Shown here: in pieces, positions 30,435-36,475 of the stretch
Position numbering within the stretch: position 1 is the stretch's first letter
How the letters are laid out: each line of letters begins with the position of its first letter
IMG/VR virus record: IMGVR_UViG_3300010392_000147
Span: 1 to 38,638 of that record
Strand: one strand, 5' to 3'
Source of the DNA: a virus
Length of the DNA stretch: 38,638 nt
Notes under the pieces: model-generated
The model's input: only the letters and a program-made list of their open reading frames with translations
Databases searched by the model: none
Told to the model about the DNA's origin: nothing
Translations under genes and position numbers: made by a program

Positions 30435-30454
30435 TTATCCACAGGTTATCCACA
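30435..30454 (+). promoter_or_regulatory. Two perfect DnaA boxes
   Basis: TTATCCACA at 30435-30443 and again at 30446-30454, start to start 11 bp, both on the same strand. This is the strict consensus of the high-affinity DnaA box of Gram-negative hosts. AT-rich sequence (TTTGATGGATTTTCATGATT) follows at once, as beside bacterial unwinding elements. It may bind host DnaA for origin firing, transcription control or titration. Confidence 0.75.
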
Positions 30455-30928: not shown

Positions 30929-30960
30929 GGGCGGTATTGTGGAAACACGATAGAACGCCC
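30929..30960 (+). ncRNA. Intergenic hairpin with GAAA tetraloop
   Basis: GGGCG 30929-30933 pairs with CGCCC 30956-30960. TATTGTG 30935-30941 pairs with CACGATA 30946-30952 around a GAAA loop. No T-run follows, so it is not a standard terminator. Its position between early genes fits an RNase III processing site of the T7 early-region type, or an RNA stability element. Confidence 0.55.
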
Positions 30961-30989: not shown

Positions 30990-31307
30990 ATGCAGAAAGC
31001 TGGCAGGTTGGCGCCCAAAGTACGCCCATTGCGTACTAAGCGGGCTATCGCCCAGTCACCCAAACCCAAACAGATACCAAAGCTACCCCGATATCTGGTG
31101 TGTGTGATTCGTGGGCGTACCCATGATCTCGCCCGAGATGCACATGGGGATCTTCTCGGGTTCGGGGGGCTCAAGAGGGCAGAACAGGTCGCTGAGCGGC
31201 TGGAAAAACACGCCCAGCGTACCGATAACGCCCGATATCGTGCTATCCACAGGGACGAGGCAAACAGGCGGCTAAAAAATAAAATGCTGAAACTAGGAAC
31301 CGTTTGA
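30990..31307 (+). CDS. Basic hypothetical protein, 105 aa
   Basis: ACGGAGG lies seven bases before ATG 30990. The product is strongly basic (MQKAGRLAPKVRPLRTKRAI at the start), followed by PRYLVCVIRGRTHDL and a helical charged end (AEQVAERLEKHAQRTDNARY). No domain recognised. The basic charge suggests nucleic-acid binding or an inhibitor of a host enzyme. It is flanked on both sides by GAAA-loop hairpins. Confidence 0.72.
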   Translation: MQKAGRLAPKVRPLRTKRAIAQSPKPKQIPKLPRYLVCVIRGRTHDLARDAHGDLLGFGGLKRAEQVAERLEKHAQRTDNARYRAIHRDEANRRLKNKMLKLGTV

Positions 31308-31918
31308 AACAGGTTGCGTATAGACAAGGGTGCGATATTGGAAACAGTATCGCCACCTATTACAGATAAGCGATTCCCCAACCGATTGTTATTGGGACAA
31401 GGGAACCACTCAAGTTTGCTAGAACCCCTAGCATACACCAGCTTTCTTGAGTCTAATGGTAGAATGGAGTATGCTAGACGCGGATGGTATTCCTACCCGA
31501 TTTAATGGGCGTGATCGCTTGATTAGATCCGTAGGATGGATGCTAATACCATGCCACATGCTACACTCTCTGAGTGTGGAACGCTGGCCGTCCGCTATAC
31601 GAAATACCATAGGGCTATGCTCCGCAACTAAGTCATAGCACCGGTATATTAGGTAAGCATGGTGACTACGCATATCGTCCGATGTGTGTAGGAAGTGTGG
31701 TCGTTAACTGACTAACGAACCACACAAATAAAGGACGCAAAGTAATCGAAGTGAGAGTTATACCACAAAGTATACCCGTTCGATTACCAACAATAATCAA
31801 CCCGACATCCACCTACTAGGTGAATACTAAGAGGTGTTGGGTAAGATCGGTGCCGCCCTGTTTAACGACAGGGTGTGCACCGTTGGCGTTCACTAATCCC
31901 AAGGAAAAGGAGATTACA
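31308..31918 (+). ncRNA. Hairpin-rich untranslated region, candidate structured RNA
   Basis: 611 bases with no convincing gene but many paired segments: 31329-31357 (GAAA loop, 12 bp), 31408-31452 (ACTCAAG with CTTGAGT, inner TGCTAG with CTAGCA), 31458-31497, 31563-31577, 31614-31639, 31666-31691 (11 bp), 31695-31725 (GTGTGGT and CGTTA with TAACG and ACCACAC), 31742-31787 (GTAATCGAA with TTCGATTAC), 31800-31842 (10 bp with inner CACCT/AGGTG) and 31848-31882 (CGGTGC and CCCTGT with partners). Read-through frames here start at TTG without ribosome-binding sites. It ends just before the gene at 31919, so it could be a long structured leader, processing array or separate RNA. Confidence 0.6.
31329..31357 (+). 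ncRNA. Second GAAA-tetraloop hairpin
   Basis: GGTG 31329-31332 with CACC 31354-31357, then CGATATTG 31333-31340 with CAGTATCG 31345-31352, one C bulge, GAAA loop. It has the same design as the hairpin at 30929 and shares the TATTG...GAAACA core. The two flank the gene at 30990. Confidence 0.55.
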
Positions 31919-32434
31919 ATGGGAAATGAAACCAATGTCGTTGTTGTTGAGTCCGCTGAGGCTGCTAAGGATGCTGAGTCTACTCAGGCAGAAACCCAGG
32001 CTGAAGTGAAACTTGAGTCCGTCATCTTCACTATCGACGGGGAAGATGTGGAAATCAATTACACTGCCGACAGTGGGAAGATCGCAGACCAGGAAGCCGC
32101 GTGCTTGAGCATCATTGCGTATGCTGCTCTCGAAGCACGCCGGCAACAGATTCGCAAGGGTCTCAAGAATATTGAGGTTCCTCTGTCTCTGGGGTGGATT
32201 CCTGAAGATCAAGCCCACGAAATCCAGCGGAAAGCCACACGGGATGCCTCCGATGTGGACGCGAAACTCAACATCCTTGTACCCATCATGGAACGCAGCC
32301 ACGCGTTCACTGTTCCTCAAGGTGGGGGTACGGCTACCCCTGCCAATGTTGTTTCGAGTCCAAAGGATCTCAGACAGGCCGCTGTGACTGGTGCTCACAT
32401 GCGTCTCCGAGACATTCGCAACGCGAAGAAGTAA
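31919..32434 (+). CDS. Hypothetical acidic protein, 171 aa
   Basis: Strong site AAGGAG nine bases before ATG 31919; the longer in-frame start at 31820 would pass through a stable hairpin. The N-terminus is acidic and Ala/Glu-rich (VVVVESAEAAKDAESTQAET). A folded part follows (SVIFTIDGEDVEINYTADSG), then helices (CLSIIAYAALEARRQQIRKG). The C-terminus is basic (AHMRLRDIRNAKK). No family recognised. A clean terminator follows. The long structured leader and the terminator make it a single-gene transcription unit, probably well expressed. Confidence 0.82.
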   Translation: MGNETNVVVVESAEAAKDAESTQAETQAEVKLESVIFTIDGEDVEINYTADSGKIADQEAACLSIIAYAALEARRQQIRKGLKNIEVPLSLGWIPEDQAHEIQRKATRDASDVDAKLNILVPIMERSHAFTVPQGGGTATPANVVSSPKDLRQAAVTGAHMRLRDIRNAKK

Positions 32435-32468: not shown

Positions 32469-32495
32469 AACCCCCTGAAACATGGGGGTTTTTTG
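32469..32495 (+). terminator. Intrinsic terminator
   Basis: AACCCCC 32469-32475 pairs with GGGGGTT 32484-32490 around TGAAACAT, and the stem runs into a T-run ending at 32494. It closes the unit of the 171-aa gene before the tRNA cluster. Confidence 0.9.
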
Positions 32496-32570
32496 TTTGT
32501 CACCGAATATGCGTTATCATTGGCAAGCACCTCGACGGAGGGAGCCCCTCTGCACTAATGCATGGTGACT

Positions 32571-32645
32571 GGCCCTATCGTCTAGTCAGGTTTAGGACAG
32601 CCGGCTTTCCGCTGGAAAACGTAGGTTCAAATCCTACTGGGGTCA
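32571..32645 (+). tRNA. trnE: tRNA-Glu(UUC), copy 1
   Basis: 75 nt cloverleaf. Acceptor GGCCCTA pairs with TGGGGTC through two wobbles. The Glu-type D arm is GTCTAG...GGAC, the anticodon loop CTTTCCG (anticodon TTC), and the T arm GTAGG TTCAAAT CCTAC. The base after the anticodon is C rather than the usual purine. The first anticodon-stem pair is a G-A mismatch. CCA is not encoded. Confidence 0.85.
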
Positions 32646-32741
32646 TTGTGGGAATCCCGAAGCCACGTTAAACTAAATGAGGGTGCGATGTGTATGGTTG
32701 CCTACCTACCCAGCACAACAACAAACAAAAAGGTAGGGATC

Positions 32742-32816
32742 GGCCCTATCGTCTAGTCAGGTTTAGGACACTCGACTTTCCGTTGAGAGACACAGGTTCA
32801 AATCCTGTTGGGGTCA
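32742..32816 (+). tRNA. trnE: tRNA-Glu(UUC), copy 2
   Basis: 75 nt. The acceptor, D arm and anticodon loop are identical to copy 1, but the anticodon stem is CTCGA with TTGAG and the T stem CACAGG with CCTGTT. The stem differences are compensatory, so it folds well. No encoded CCA. A 97-base spacer separates it from copy 1 and contains no credible gene. Confidence 0.87.
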
Positions 32817-32820
32817 TTGA

Positions 32821-32967
32821 TTCTGGTACCCTGAGACTTCATCAGTCTCTTGTACTGTGATAGAAGGAACCAGCGGGTTGAGTGGTAATCTCGTCAGTAC
32901 CACAAGATAGCCCACTCTCTATCACAAAACCCTCAGTGGTAGGGTGACACCCTATGGCTGAGGTTTA
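32821..32967 (+). ncRNA. Structured spacer RNA between tRNA genes
   Basis: Several stems follow each other: GAGACT 32833-32838 with AGTCTC 32844-32849. A long interrupted hairpin has TGTGATAGA 32856-32864 with TCTATCACA 32918-32926, GGGTT 32875-32879 with AGCCC 32909-32913, and GTGGTA 32882-32887 with TACCAC 32898-32903. Then CCTCAG 32931-32936 pairs with CTGAGG 32958-32963, enclosing TAGGGT/ACCCTA. As an alternative, CTGGTACC 32823 can pair with GGAACCAG 32866 around an anticodon-arm-like hairpin whose loop reads TTCATCA. No gene is visible. Confidence 0.5.
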
Positions 32968-33083
32968 GGCCCGGTCGTCTAGTCAGGTTATTAGTAATGC
33001 ACTACCCATCGAAGGGTAGCACGCTGCTAGTAGGACACCCCTCTTTCCGAGGGGAAACCTAGGTTCAAATCCTAGTCGGGTCA
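32968..33083 (+). tRNA. trnE: tRNA-Glu(UUC) with 41-nt D-loop insertion
   Basis: 116 nt. Acceptor GGCCCGG pairs with TCGGGTC, the anticodon stem is CCCCT with AGGGG around CTTTCCG (anticodon TTC), and the T arm is CTAGG TTCAAAT CCTAG. All parts of copies 1 and 2 are present, but 41 bases (32990-33030) are inserted in the D loop between GTCAGGTT and TAGGAC. The insert is itself a hairpin: CTACCC 33002-33007 with GGGTAG 33014-33019, flanked by ATTAG and CTAGT. The rest of the cloverleaf pairs perfectly. Confidence 0.75.
32990..33030 (+). mobile_element. Palindromic 41-nt insertion inside a tRNA gene
   Basis: Bounded by comparison with the uninterrupted copies at 32571 and 32742. The ends ATTAG and CTAGT pair, the centre forms a CTACCC/GGGTAG stem with an ATCGAA loop, and TAG is repeated at the right junction. 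It encodes no protein. It could be a small palindromic element, an intron-like insertion removed from RNA, or a stable D-loop extension. Confidence 0.5.
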
Positions 33084-33085
33084 TT

Positions 33086-33159
33086 GTGGCTGTAGCTTAA
33101 TTGGTAGAGCACTCGGTTGTGGTCCGGGAATGGTGCGGGTTCAAGTCCCGTCGGTCACC
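33086..33159 (+). tRNA. trnH: tRNA-His(GUG)
   Basis: 74 nt, two bases after the interrupted tRNA-Glu. Acceptor GTGGCTG with CGGTCAC, D arm AGCTTAATTGGTAGAGC, anticodon loop TTGTGGT (anticodon GTG), T arm CGGGT TCAAGTC and partner. Base 73 is C. The base before position 1 is T, so the extra G-1 of tRNA-His would have to be added or is absent. CCA not encoded. Confidence 0.88.
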
Positions 33160-33172
33160 TTGGAGGTAAGCA

Positions 33173-33292
33173 ATGCTAATACTCGGTATAATCATCTGTG
33201 TTGTGCTGATGCTGTCTCTCATGGCAGCCCCCCGTCAGGACGCCCGTCCTCGGGAGCCGTTCCCTAAGATTGGAGGGGATGATGATACTTGA
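33173..33292 (+). CDS. Small membrane protein, 39 aa
   Basis: Starts 14 bases after tRNA-His with a strong TTGGAGGT site. One membrane segment at the very N-terminus (MLILGIIICVVLMLSLMAAP) is followed by a short Pro/Arg-rich tail and a final GGDDDT. It overlaps the next gene by 11 nt. Probably an inner-membrane peptide; role unknown. Confidence 0.72.
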   Translation: MLILGIIICVVLMLSLMAAPRQDARPREPFPKIGGDDDT

Positions 33293-33503
33293 AGAAGAGG
33301 CGGTAGACAGAGAGAAGAGGTTCTCTGACATTCAGCTGTTCAGTCTGTTTGTGTCGAAGGTGGGGTCGGGTTGTGTGCTTTACCTAAAGACAAGCCACAA
33401 GCATGCTCTTGAAGTAGGGGAATCAAGTATTCCTTTTGAGTTTAGCAGAACCCTACAGTGCTACCCTGTAAAAGTAACAAGGGTTACATACCACCAAATC
33501 TAG
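33282..33503 (+). CDS. Hypothetical protein, 73 aa
   Basis: GGAGG (33272) is five bases before ATG 33282; ATG 33279 and TTG 33270 are less well spaced. The product begins MILEEEAVDREKRFSDIQLF and continues with short hydrophobic and polar blocks (SLFVSKVGSGCVLYLKTS). It has no membrane helix of full length and no motif I know. It lies between two membrane-protein genes. Confidence 0.65.
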   Translation: MILEEEAVDREKRFSDIQLFSLFVSKVGSGCVLYLKTSHKHALEVGESSIPFEFSRTLQCYPVKVTRVTYHQI

Positions 33504-33511
33504 GAGGTCGC

Positions 33512-33871
33512 ATGTTTCCACAGGTATTGAAGTGTAAAGAACCACCACCGAAGCCTGTTGAGGGTGGCTCTGCTGGTGCTTTCGAAAATCGAGGTCTTCA
33601 CCATGAGTACCAAAGGAAACTGAAAGAGTGGGAACGTAAGGTGTCTATGTATCAGTACCTGAACAACGGTCTCTTCTTTGCCATCATTGCTGTGTCAATG
33701 TGGGCTTCTTTTGATTTCATTCTTGTGTATCTGAAACATACAGATGATATCCCTATTCTGTATAGGAAGTCTTCTTTGATCGCAGCCAAGATACTTTGGG
33801 GCTCAGCCAGTACCGTTGTCTCTGCTTTAGCAGTGATAAATGTTGGATCTTACTTGAACATGTACGATTAA
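33512..33871 (+). CDS. Two-pass membrane protein, 119 aa
   Basis: AGGAGGT precedes ATG 33512; an upstream in-frame start at 33458 would overlap the preceding gene. A Pro-rich cytoplasmic-type N-terminus (CKEPPPKPVEGG) and a charged helix lead to two membrane segments: NGLFFAIIAVSMWASFDFIL and ILWGSASTVVSALAVINVGS. No family recognised. Two-pass topology would suit a holin or an exclusion protein, but the early-type location argues against lysis. Confidence 0.75.
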   Translation: MFPQVLKCKEPPPKPVEGGSAGAFENRGLHHEYQRKLKEWERKVSMYQYLNNGLFFAIIAVSMWASFDFILVYLKHTDDIPILYRKSSLIAAKILWGSASTVVSALAVINVGSYLNMYD

Positions 33872-33881
33872 TGGAGGAATC

Positions 33882-34247
33882 ATGAATCATGGAGCGTTAC
33901 CCGCGATTGCGTGCTGTCTTATCCTTTCTCTTGTGGGATGTGGGAACAGTGGTGATGTGTATCTACCTGTTCGTGTGATAGATACCTATGCGATTGGGTA
34001 CACTCATTACTGGGTAGCCGAGGATGAGAATGGGTTCGCGTATACTCGCAGGGGTTACGCATCAGGGGGTTCTAAGGTGCTGCTAAAAATAACGGACGAG
34101 GAGGCGGAAGCCCTTCGCTCGTATTCAAACCAGACAAGGGGGTGTTACTCTTGTCGCTTACAGAGTAGGGCGGAAGAGGCCCTTGTTATAGGAGAATCGA
34201 ATGAGCAACCAAGACAACAACAACACAGCACCGTGCACGAACCCTGA
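33882..34247 (+). CDS. Lipoprotein, 121 aa
   Basis: TGGAGGAATC precedes ATG 33882. A signal peptide (HGALPAIACCLILSLVGC) ends in a lipobox LVGC, so Cys20 would be lipidated. The mature part begins GNSGDVYLPVRV, so it has no Asp at +2 and should go to the outer membrane. It contains two further Cys (CYSC). Phage lipoproteins expressed early commonly block superinfection at receptors, which is an inference here. The last 47 nt overlap the next gene. Confidence 0.78.
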   Translation: MNHGALPAIACCLILSLVGCGNSGDVYLPVRVIDTYAIGYTHYWVAEDENGFAYTRRGYASGGSKVLLKITDEEAEALRSYSNQTRGCYSCRLQSRAEEALVIGESNEQPRQQQHSTVHEP

Positions 34248-34380
34248 CTGTCCCCAGGTGGACGACAACGCAGCAGCAGCAGCCGACACCAATGCAGAAG
34301 CAACAGAGGCTGTCGCTCAGGACGCAGCAGATACACAGCCTGCCGAGCAGGTTGACGAAGCTGTTGCAGATCAGGATTGA
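34201..34380 (+). CDS. Acidic Ala/Gln-rich protein, 59 aa
   Basis: AGGAG lies seven bases before ATG 34201. The N-terminus has a CTNPDCPQ pair of Cys, and the rest is an acidic low-complexity stretch (DDNAAAAADTNAEATEAVAQ and similar). It is probably disordered. Overlaps the lipoprotein 3' end in another frame. Function unknown. Confidence 0.68.
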   Translation: MSNQDNNNTAPCTNPDCPQVDDNAAAAADTNAEATEAVAQDAADTQPAEQVDEAVADQD

Positions 34381-34733
34381 CCATACCCTACACCCGCCCC
34401 AAGCTGGTACTAGGGAGAGATTGCTATGCGAGTTGTATGCCCGCCTTAGGGTAGAGCAACTAACACCACGCCTCTGCAATCCATAGAGGCATGCCCCTTG
34501 GTGGGGGTGTGTCTCTTTTCACGACGCCGTGTCACTTCTGTGATACGACAACACACCACACGGACGAGGCTTTGGCCCGGTAAGCAGATGCGTGAAACAA
34601 GTTTCTAATCCGGGATGGGTAGCGAGCGGTGATGGTGTGTATTTTATGAGTGGTTAAAAGAGAGTCTATTGGTACGACAAACCCGACCGGCAGGGAGACA
34701 TGGCCTGACCAGCCCGCCAGCCGGACTCATATT
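34381..34733 (+). ncRNA. Structured untranslated stretch before second tRNA pair
   Basis: 353 bases without a credible gene. Visible pairings: TACCCTA 34384-34390 with TAGGGTA 34447-34453, GCCTCT 34470-34475 with AGAGGC 34485-34490, CGTGTCAC 34528-34535 with GTGATACG 34540-34547, CCCGG 34576-34580 with CCGGG 34610-34614 enclosing GAAAC/GTTTC, and CCGGC near 34687 with GCCGG near 34719. The short frame following AGGGAG at 34414 stops after seven codons. It resembles the hairpin-rich stretch at 31308-31918 in density. Confidence 0.45.
34493..34520 (+). terminator. Possible weak terminator
   Basis: CCCC with GGGG around TTGGT, directly after the GCCTCT/AGAGGC hairpin, followed by TGTGTCTCTTTT. 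The stem is short and the T-run is four bases, so it is a weaker candidate than the others. Confidence 0.45.
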
Positions 34734-34802
34734 CAGGTAGTAGCTCAGTGGTAGAGCTGGAGATCGCAACTCCGGTCGCAGGTTCAACTCCTGCCTACCT
34801 GA
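34734..34802 (+). tRNA. Short tRNA, anticodon CGC by position (Ala?)
   Basis: 69 nt. Acceptor CAGGTAG and CTACCTG pair perfectly. The D arm is GCTC AGTGGTA GAGC, the T arm GCAGG TTCAACT CCTGC. The anticodon arm TGGAG ATCGCAA CTCCG gives anticodon CGC (Ala codon GCG). It is shorter than usual (no spare base 26, variable loop of about three) and lacks the G3-U70 pair that marks tRNA-Ala. The identity is therefore uncertain. Confidence 0.65.
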
Positions 34803-34869
34803 TTCATGACGGACCCAGTCCTGTTACATCTGGGGGCAGTGAGGACCTGCTACATCACTCCTCGGTACC

Positions 34870-34944
34870 GGCCCTATCGTCTAGTCAGGCTCAGGACATC
34901 TCGTTCTCAACGAGAAGACACAGGTTCAAATCCTGTTGGGGTCA
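34870..34944 (+). tRNA. trnE: tRNA-Glu(CUC), copy 4
   Basis: 75 nt. The acceptor and 5' half are nearly the same as copies 1 and 2 (GGCCCTATCGTCTAGTCAGG), and the T arm is identical to copy 2. The anticodon stem TCTCG pairs with CGAGA around TTCTCAA, anticodon CTC. Here base 37 is the normal A. CCA not encoded. Confidence 0.87.
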
Positions 34945-34950
34945 TTAGGA

Positions 34951-35778: not shown

Positions 35779-35916
35779 ATGAAAGGTTTAATACACATAC
35801 ACAAACGTATCTACCGTAACACAGAGCAACGGGAGGCTCGCTATCGTTATGGTCAGGTACTTAAGGGATGTAAGAAAGCGGTGTTTAAGGATGGAGGAAG
35901 AAAACAAAACAGATGA
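35779..35916 (+). CDS. Basic micro-protein, 45 aa
   Basis: GAAGG lies seven bases before ATG 35779. The peptide is strongly basic and Tyr/Arg-rich (RIYRNTEQREARYRYGQVLK, ending DGGRKQNR). The last 68 nt overlap the sigma-like gene in another frame. Could be a nucleic-acid-binding peptide. No family recognised. Confidence 0.6.
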   Translation: MKGLIHIHKRIYRNTEQREARYRYGQVLKGCKKAVFKDGGRKQNR

Positions 35917-36475
35917 ATTGTACGAACAGATATCAGCTTATGTGGGTAGGCTGGTAAAAGAACGTCGTCTTTACCCACAAGCGAATAAGGATGAAATGAT
36001 TTCCATATTCTATATTCGCTTACGCTCTGCTGCTCAGTCCTTCACAGAAGAAGGACCCGCTACACTACGCACATACAACTCACGAGTGATGGACCGCTCG
36101 TGGCGTAGTGTGGCATACCTTTCCGCATACGGCCACTGCCGCAGACAAAACGCAGGTTTGGAAACAGCAAAGAGCAAAGCACTTAGAACACAGGTGTACC
36201 TGTCTTCCGTACATGATGCTATCTTCGCATCAGGAAACACAGAGGTAGACACTTGTGATCTATTACGCAAATGCATGGACGTCCTTCCACCTGTTATACA
36301 AACAGGGCTTAGGATACAGTACATCCACGGATGCACACTGGAAGAGACTGCCAAAGCTCTTGGCATGACAGTATCCACATACATAAAGAAGAGACGCGAA
36401 GCATTCAAGCGTGTTCGCCGGGCGTGTCGGCGAGACATAACTCCTGCTGAACAGAATAACCTTGCCATCGGGTAA
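35849..36475 (+). CDS. Sigma-70-like (ECF-type) protein
   Basis: 208 aa from ATG 35849 (GGGAGG 12 bases upstream), or 194 aa from ATG 35891. The middle resembles sigma region 2 (NKDEMISIFYIRLRSAAQSF, later SWRSVAYLSAYGHCRRQNAG). The C-terminal part resembles region 4: LPPVIQTGLRIQYIHGCTLE, then ETAKALGMTVSTYIKKRREA, a helix-turn-helix with the usual spacing. The first seven residues of the long form are basic. It could redirect host RNA polymerase to phage or host promoters, or bind core as an inhibitor. A terminator follows. Confidence 0.7.
   Translation: MVRYLRDVRKRCLRMEEENKTDELYEQISAYVGRLVKERRLYPQANKDEMISIFYIRLRSAAQSFTEEGPATLRTYNSRVMDRSWRSVAYLSAYGHCRRQNAGLETAKSKALRTQVYLSSVHDAIFASGNTEVDTCDLLRKCMDVLPPVIQTGLRIQYIHGCTLEETAKALGMTVSTYIKKRREAFKRVRRACRRDITPAEQNNLAIG

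Follow-up and report, generated by a model that had tools for sequence, protein, structure and literature searches.

A candidate large structured noncoding RNA ahead of the tRNA island of an uncultured T7-like phage

The stretch from position 31308 to 31918 on the plus strand of a phage DNA of 38,638 nt (hereafter the window, positions 1 to 38,638 of IMG/VR record IMGVR_UViG_3300010392_000147) is noncoding, presents a strand-biased folding excess and a layout of successive predicted domains, and matches no known RNA family. The best explanation, to which an even chance is given, is that it specifies a large structured noncoding RNA of a T7-like phage, most likely free-standing and acting in the manner of the large phage RNAs ROOL and GOLLD. 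We infer that this RNA is transcribed, processed and present as a free-standing molecule, with a function and perhaps a partner of its own.

The element is flanked upstream by an ORF for a basic protein of 105 aa (30990..31307, plus strand), which had no family match, and downstream by an ORF of 171 aa (31919..32434, plus strand), which presented a strong ribosome-binding site and a clear coding signal, with neither a family match nor a tblastn match in phages. The stop of the former at 31307 and the ATG of the latter at 31919 show that the 611-nt stretch fills the entire gap, exactly as it had been delimited in the initial annotation. All six frames carried 9-13 stops each, and a codon model for which the large genes of this phage had served as training set gave negative scores, below background, in every one of them; therefore, the stretch is very probably untranslated. 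A protein frame across it, which the initial annotation had named as incompatible with its structural reading, was not found, and a hidden protein was rejected, as there was neither an open frame nor a codon signal.

In silico folding of the plus strand of 31308-31918 revealed an MFE of -223.2 kcal/mol, against about -167 kcal/mol for dinucleotide shuffles, corresponding to a z of -8.46 with 20 shuffles and of -7.86 with 120, none of which folded as well. The stretch thus passed the comparison with shuffled controls by which its structure had been proposed to be judged, with a z of about -8. In a comparison of tiled 611-nt segments covering the record from end to end, none exceeded its shuffles by as much as this one (-54 kcal/mol), the next non-overlapping segment reaching -32 kcal/mol. 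The proposal that hairpins are more abundant than chance would allow held in part: seven stems reached 8 bp or more when wobbles were allowed, against 1.75 in shuffles, a count matched in a single one of 300 shuffles, whereas perfect stems of at least 5 bp were weakly significant, with nine against 4.9 +/- 2.0 in shuffles and as many in 26 of the 127 other segments.

The two strands differed in their folding, with a z of -7.9 on the plus strand and -4.2 on the minus strand, MFE values of -223 and -202 kcal/mol, and 22 and 15 G-U pairs, respectively. Folding is thus weaker on the complement, and the signal points to the gene-coding strand. This is relevant to the reading of the stretch as a DNA-level element, such as an origin, a packaging site or a set of inverted repeats bound by protein, close to the genome terminus, which is judged highly improbable. 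The element follows the terminase gene at a distance of 1.3 kb, and tandem DnaA boxes, two perfect copies of TTATCCACA placed 2 bp apart, were found at 30435-30454, 0.44 kb behind the same gene, so that a terminus or an origin may be near. However, besides the better folding of the plus strand, its 22 G-U pairs become A-C mismatches on the minus strand, and the hairpins share no repeated motif. The lack of such a motif also led to the rejection of an array of one repeated hairpin unit and, together with the strand preference, left a protein-binding array with little support; of the three options raised initially (a new structured phage RNA, a long regulatory leader and a protein-binding array), the first is the best supported. 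As for the DnaA boxes themselves, the same pair was present in opposite orientation in the related record L093 (10427-10446), 0.7 kb behind terminase, and it is a possible origin or genome-end element.

The predicted fold comprised about 20 helices of 4-18 bp each, most of them with a mean pair probability above 0.85, all described here on the plus strand. At the 5′ end, a hairpin unit (31313..31374) is formed by an outer stem (31313-31321/31366-31374) and an inner GAAA-capped 13-bp stem (31328-31340/31345-31358; mean p 0.92). It is followed by a possible H-type pseudoknot (31408..31477), in which ACTCAAG/CTTGAGT (31408-31414/31446-31452) would be crossed by CTAGCATAC/GTATGCTAG (31428-31436/31469-31477); a pseudoknot of equal quality was present in 19 of 500 shuffles, and this predicted motif is only suggestive. 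The middle domain (31480..31595), closed by GCGGATG/CGTCCGC (31480-31486/31589-31595; p 0.99), contains inner hairpins of 13 and 8 bp, and it precedes a hairpin composed of 31604-31608/31643-31647 and 31612-31621/31631-31642 (31604..31647; p 0.93-0.95), an 11-bp hairpin, CTACGCATATC/GATGTGTGTAG (31666..31691; p 1.00), and a 12-bp hairpin, GTGTGGTCGTTA/TAACGAACCACAC (31695..31725; p 0.95; z -4.7). Finally, a 3′ four-way junction (31733..31891), closed by GGACGC/GCGTTC (31733-31738/31886-31891; p 0.98), encloses three long hairpins at 31742-31787, 31800-31842 and 31848-31882. Most of the folding signal came from the 206-nt 3′ domain (31690-31895), for which z was -7.6 to -8.2 and not one of 400 shuffles folded as well; z was about -3 for each of the 5′ and middle blocks and -2.8 for the block 31479-31692. 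The helices from 31428 onward, 3′ domain included, were kept in a fold that also included flanking sequence, about 400 nt on the upstream side and 80 nt on the downstream side.

This domain layout makes it improbable that the stretch is a run of hairpins for processing or stability, of the RNase III type known from T7 early mRNA, placed between genes of one operon and not functioning together as one RNA. Hairpins cut by RNase III are indeed used by T7-like phages between their early genes, and the element is likewise a structured intergenic RNA of such a phage in which several stems are long and regular; a separate GAAA-capped hairpin was moreover observed between two small upstream ORFs (30929-30960; z -3.7), and it is a possible processing site. 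Nevertheless, the RNase III hairpins are single, usually one for each cut, whereas here about 20 predicted helices with long-range closing stems extend over 0.6 kb, and the 3′ part closes as a predicted multibranch domain instead of forming independent stems.

The last predicted helix was a small stem, TAATCCC/GGAGATTA (31894..31916; 31894-31900/31909-31916; p 0.91; -4.0 kcal/mol), which overlies part of the 171-aa gene's Shine-Dalgarno sequence; the array of hairpins, stated initially to stop just before the ribosome-binding site, overlaps it with this stem. Since the element occupies all of the space before this gene's start codon, it could also be a long 5′ leader, or an intercistronic region, acting in cis on the translation or mRNA life of the gene at 31919, for example via this stem, a reading that is the leading alternative although it is rather unlikely. 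The main fold reaches to 28 nt before the ATG, and an intrinsic-terminator-like stem followed by a T run was found after the 171-aa gene (32472..32488, plus strand), indicating that RNA and gene are probably carried on one transcript. The ribosome-binding site, however, was not unusually closed, its opening cost of 7.8 kcal/mol being mid-range among the starts compared; a leader of 600 nt would be long, given the compactness of the genome; and no match to a riboswitch or to any other cis-regulatory family reached the gathering score. The leader of the capsid gene was unstructured (z -0.4), and the idea that leaders of this phage are structured in general was rejected for that gene. Against the preferred free-standing RNA were counted, besides the filled gap that would suit a leader and the lack of a homolog, the results of a repeated-word search, which found no repeated phage promoter motif beyond tRNA sequences, and the lack of a terminator of its own directly 3′ of the element.

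The search for relatives was carried out from a phage with distant kin. The source record encodes a T7-type RNA polymerase, a primase-helicase, a DNA polymerase, a head-tail connector, tail proteins and a terminase, and is therefore assigned to the T7-like phages. The window corresponds to the last 38,638 bases of the 47.7-kb IMG/VR contig IMGVR_UViG_3300006467_000257, its sole high-identity match, and no terminal overlap of the contig was found. Closer phage relatives were sought via terminase, portal, RNA polymerase and primase-helicase, with a best match of 38-42% identity, the range observed between the terminase and its nearest relatives, and in the terminase tree the phage was placed on a very long branch. 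Judged by these sequence comparisons, this uncultured phage represents a deeply diverged T7-like branch. RNA homologs were found neither by blastn in phage genomes and plasmids, nor in 50 whole related viral records, nor by nhmmer and blastn on related loci. Scans of IMG/VR with exact 15-16-nt patterns produced 75 non-self matches, attributable to chance judging by their flanks, and six further pattern matches that did not match the model. Similarly, no relative was found among 89 loci with a covariance model for which this single sequence of the 3′ domain was the only input.

The gaps behind terminase in related phages did not align to the element and were moderately structured at best, and they bear on the reading of the fold as a chance excess or a neutral remnant, for example of decayed tRNA or other genes, with no RNA function. 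This reading is considered very unlikely. The element is a single sequence with no known relatives, gaps of similar length in related phages reached z values of -3 to -5.5, and in at least 23 of the 77 other related loci some 250-nt segment behind terminase folded at a z of -4 or lower, all of which would fit it. However, per 100 nt the excess was -9.2 kcal/mol, roughly double the -4.8 kcal/mol of the best gap in related phages, and, apart from the failure of all 120 shuffles to fold as well, no tRNA or Rfam remnant was detected in the stretch.

Comparison with known RNAs revealed nothing in Rfam at gathering score for the element, and no hit up to E 10 in the 1.7 kb around it; tRNA and tmRNA genes were likewise lacking within 31308-31918, according to ARAGORN and the Rfam tRNA model. 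A self-splicing intron of group I or II was rejected, given the lack of an Rfam match and the flanking ORFs, each with its own start and stop. The pRNA of phi29, of about 174 nt, is part of phi29-type packaging motors. Both are structured podovirus RNAs, and the element is encoded no more than 1.5 kb from a packaging gene, but the terminase here is of T7 type and no pRNA match was obtained in Rfam.

Larger structured RNAs offer the closer comparison. The large RNAs ROOL and GOLLD, of unknown function, occur in phages and prophages, in many cases close to tRNA islands, and both form RNA-only cages (PMC12286853). The ROOL model (RF03087) gave no match up to E 10 around the element, nor in a family-specific search over the contig, whereas the ROOL of plasmid pMP118, whose location was described previously (PMC5643018), was found at 130.4 bits by the same procedure. 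The model of the conserved 3′ region of GOLLD (RF02032) gave no match up to E 10 either, in a search that had no positive control above the cut-off. The element nevertheless shares with ROOL its size (about 580 nt against 574 model positions), an elaborate multi-domain fold, predicted here, the absence of protein coding, and a phage location near tRNA genes, five of which were called in the contig. ROOL has multiple conserved pseudoknots and assembles as a homo-octamer; in the element, one candidate pseudoknot was predicted. The element differs in that its host is a T7-like podovirus and in its folding: by the same method, the real ROOL of pMP118 reached a z of just -1.3, against -7.9 here. 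High stability is therefore not a hallmark of such RNAs, a point that counts against the preferred explanation, and that of the element is unusual even beside ROOL. With GOLLD it shares the condition of a large phage RNA near tRNA islands with a distinct, ordered 3′ domain, but it is shorter, many GOLLD RNAs exceeding 800 nt (PMC12286853). GOLLD forms a homo-14-mer nanocage. The lack of a match to either model, together with the shared size class and setting, suggests that the element may work like ROOL and GOLLD, by analogy, while its sequence places it in neither family.

The element is located just ahead of a tRNA island (32570..34944, plus strand), in which ARAGORN called Glu, Glu, His, Ala and Glu and missed one Glu-like copy. 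The nearby tRNA genes and a further structured spacer inside the island (z -4.4) support the reading as an RNA. This spacer is placed at 32820-32967, between two tRNA-Glu genes. Glutamate dominates the island (here taken as 32570-34946), with three called tRNA-Glu genes (two UUC, one CUC) and the interrupted copy beside His and Ala. This fourth tRNA-Glu-like gene (32968-33087) has its D-loop interrupted by about 41 nt (32990-33030) with a predicted hairpin of their own; each half has its match in the other tRNA-Glu genes, where the two adjoin without interruption, and the copy was missed by Rfam as well and had no phage match. Another structured noncoding stretch was observed at about 34400-34640 (z about -3) and, behind the island, a protein weakly similar to sigma-70 region 4 is encoded at 35849-36475.

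In the preferred explanation, an RNA of about 580 nt would be transcribed rightward on a transcript shared with the neighbouring genes and would fold into several domains, the most stable being the 3′ four-way junction. It would probably be cut out of this transcript or stabilised within it, as phage tRNAs are. In T7-like genomes, the terminase gene normally lies near the right end; this position, together with the DnaA pair behind the gene, suggests that the element may lie within the early, left part of the genome. If the contig order reflects a T7-type genome with termini just after the terminase gene, the element would belong to the early, first-entering region, and a role in host take-over or in the evasion of defences would be a natural guess. 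Tentatively, and with more doubt than attaches to the RNA itself, the element may represent a novel class of large and ornate phage RNAs with no sequence relationship to ROOL and GOLLD; in this reading, it would be borne by a deep T7-like branch, next to a tRNA island in the early region, would act free-standing in host take-over and would be distinguished by unusually stable stems.

The large structured RNAs known from phages are very few, and what ROOL and GOLLD do is open. If the preferred explanation is true, the element would be a third, independent case, found in a small T7-like phage, and its stable, compact 3′ domain would make synthesis in vitro and deletion easier. It would also provide a test of whether the large RNAs near phage tRNA islands have a common job.
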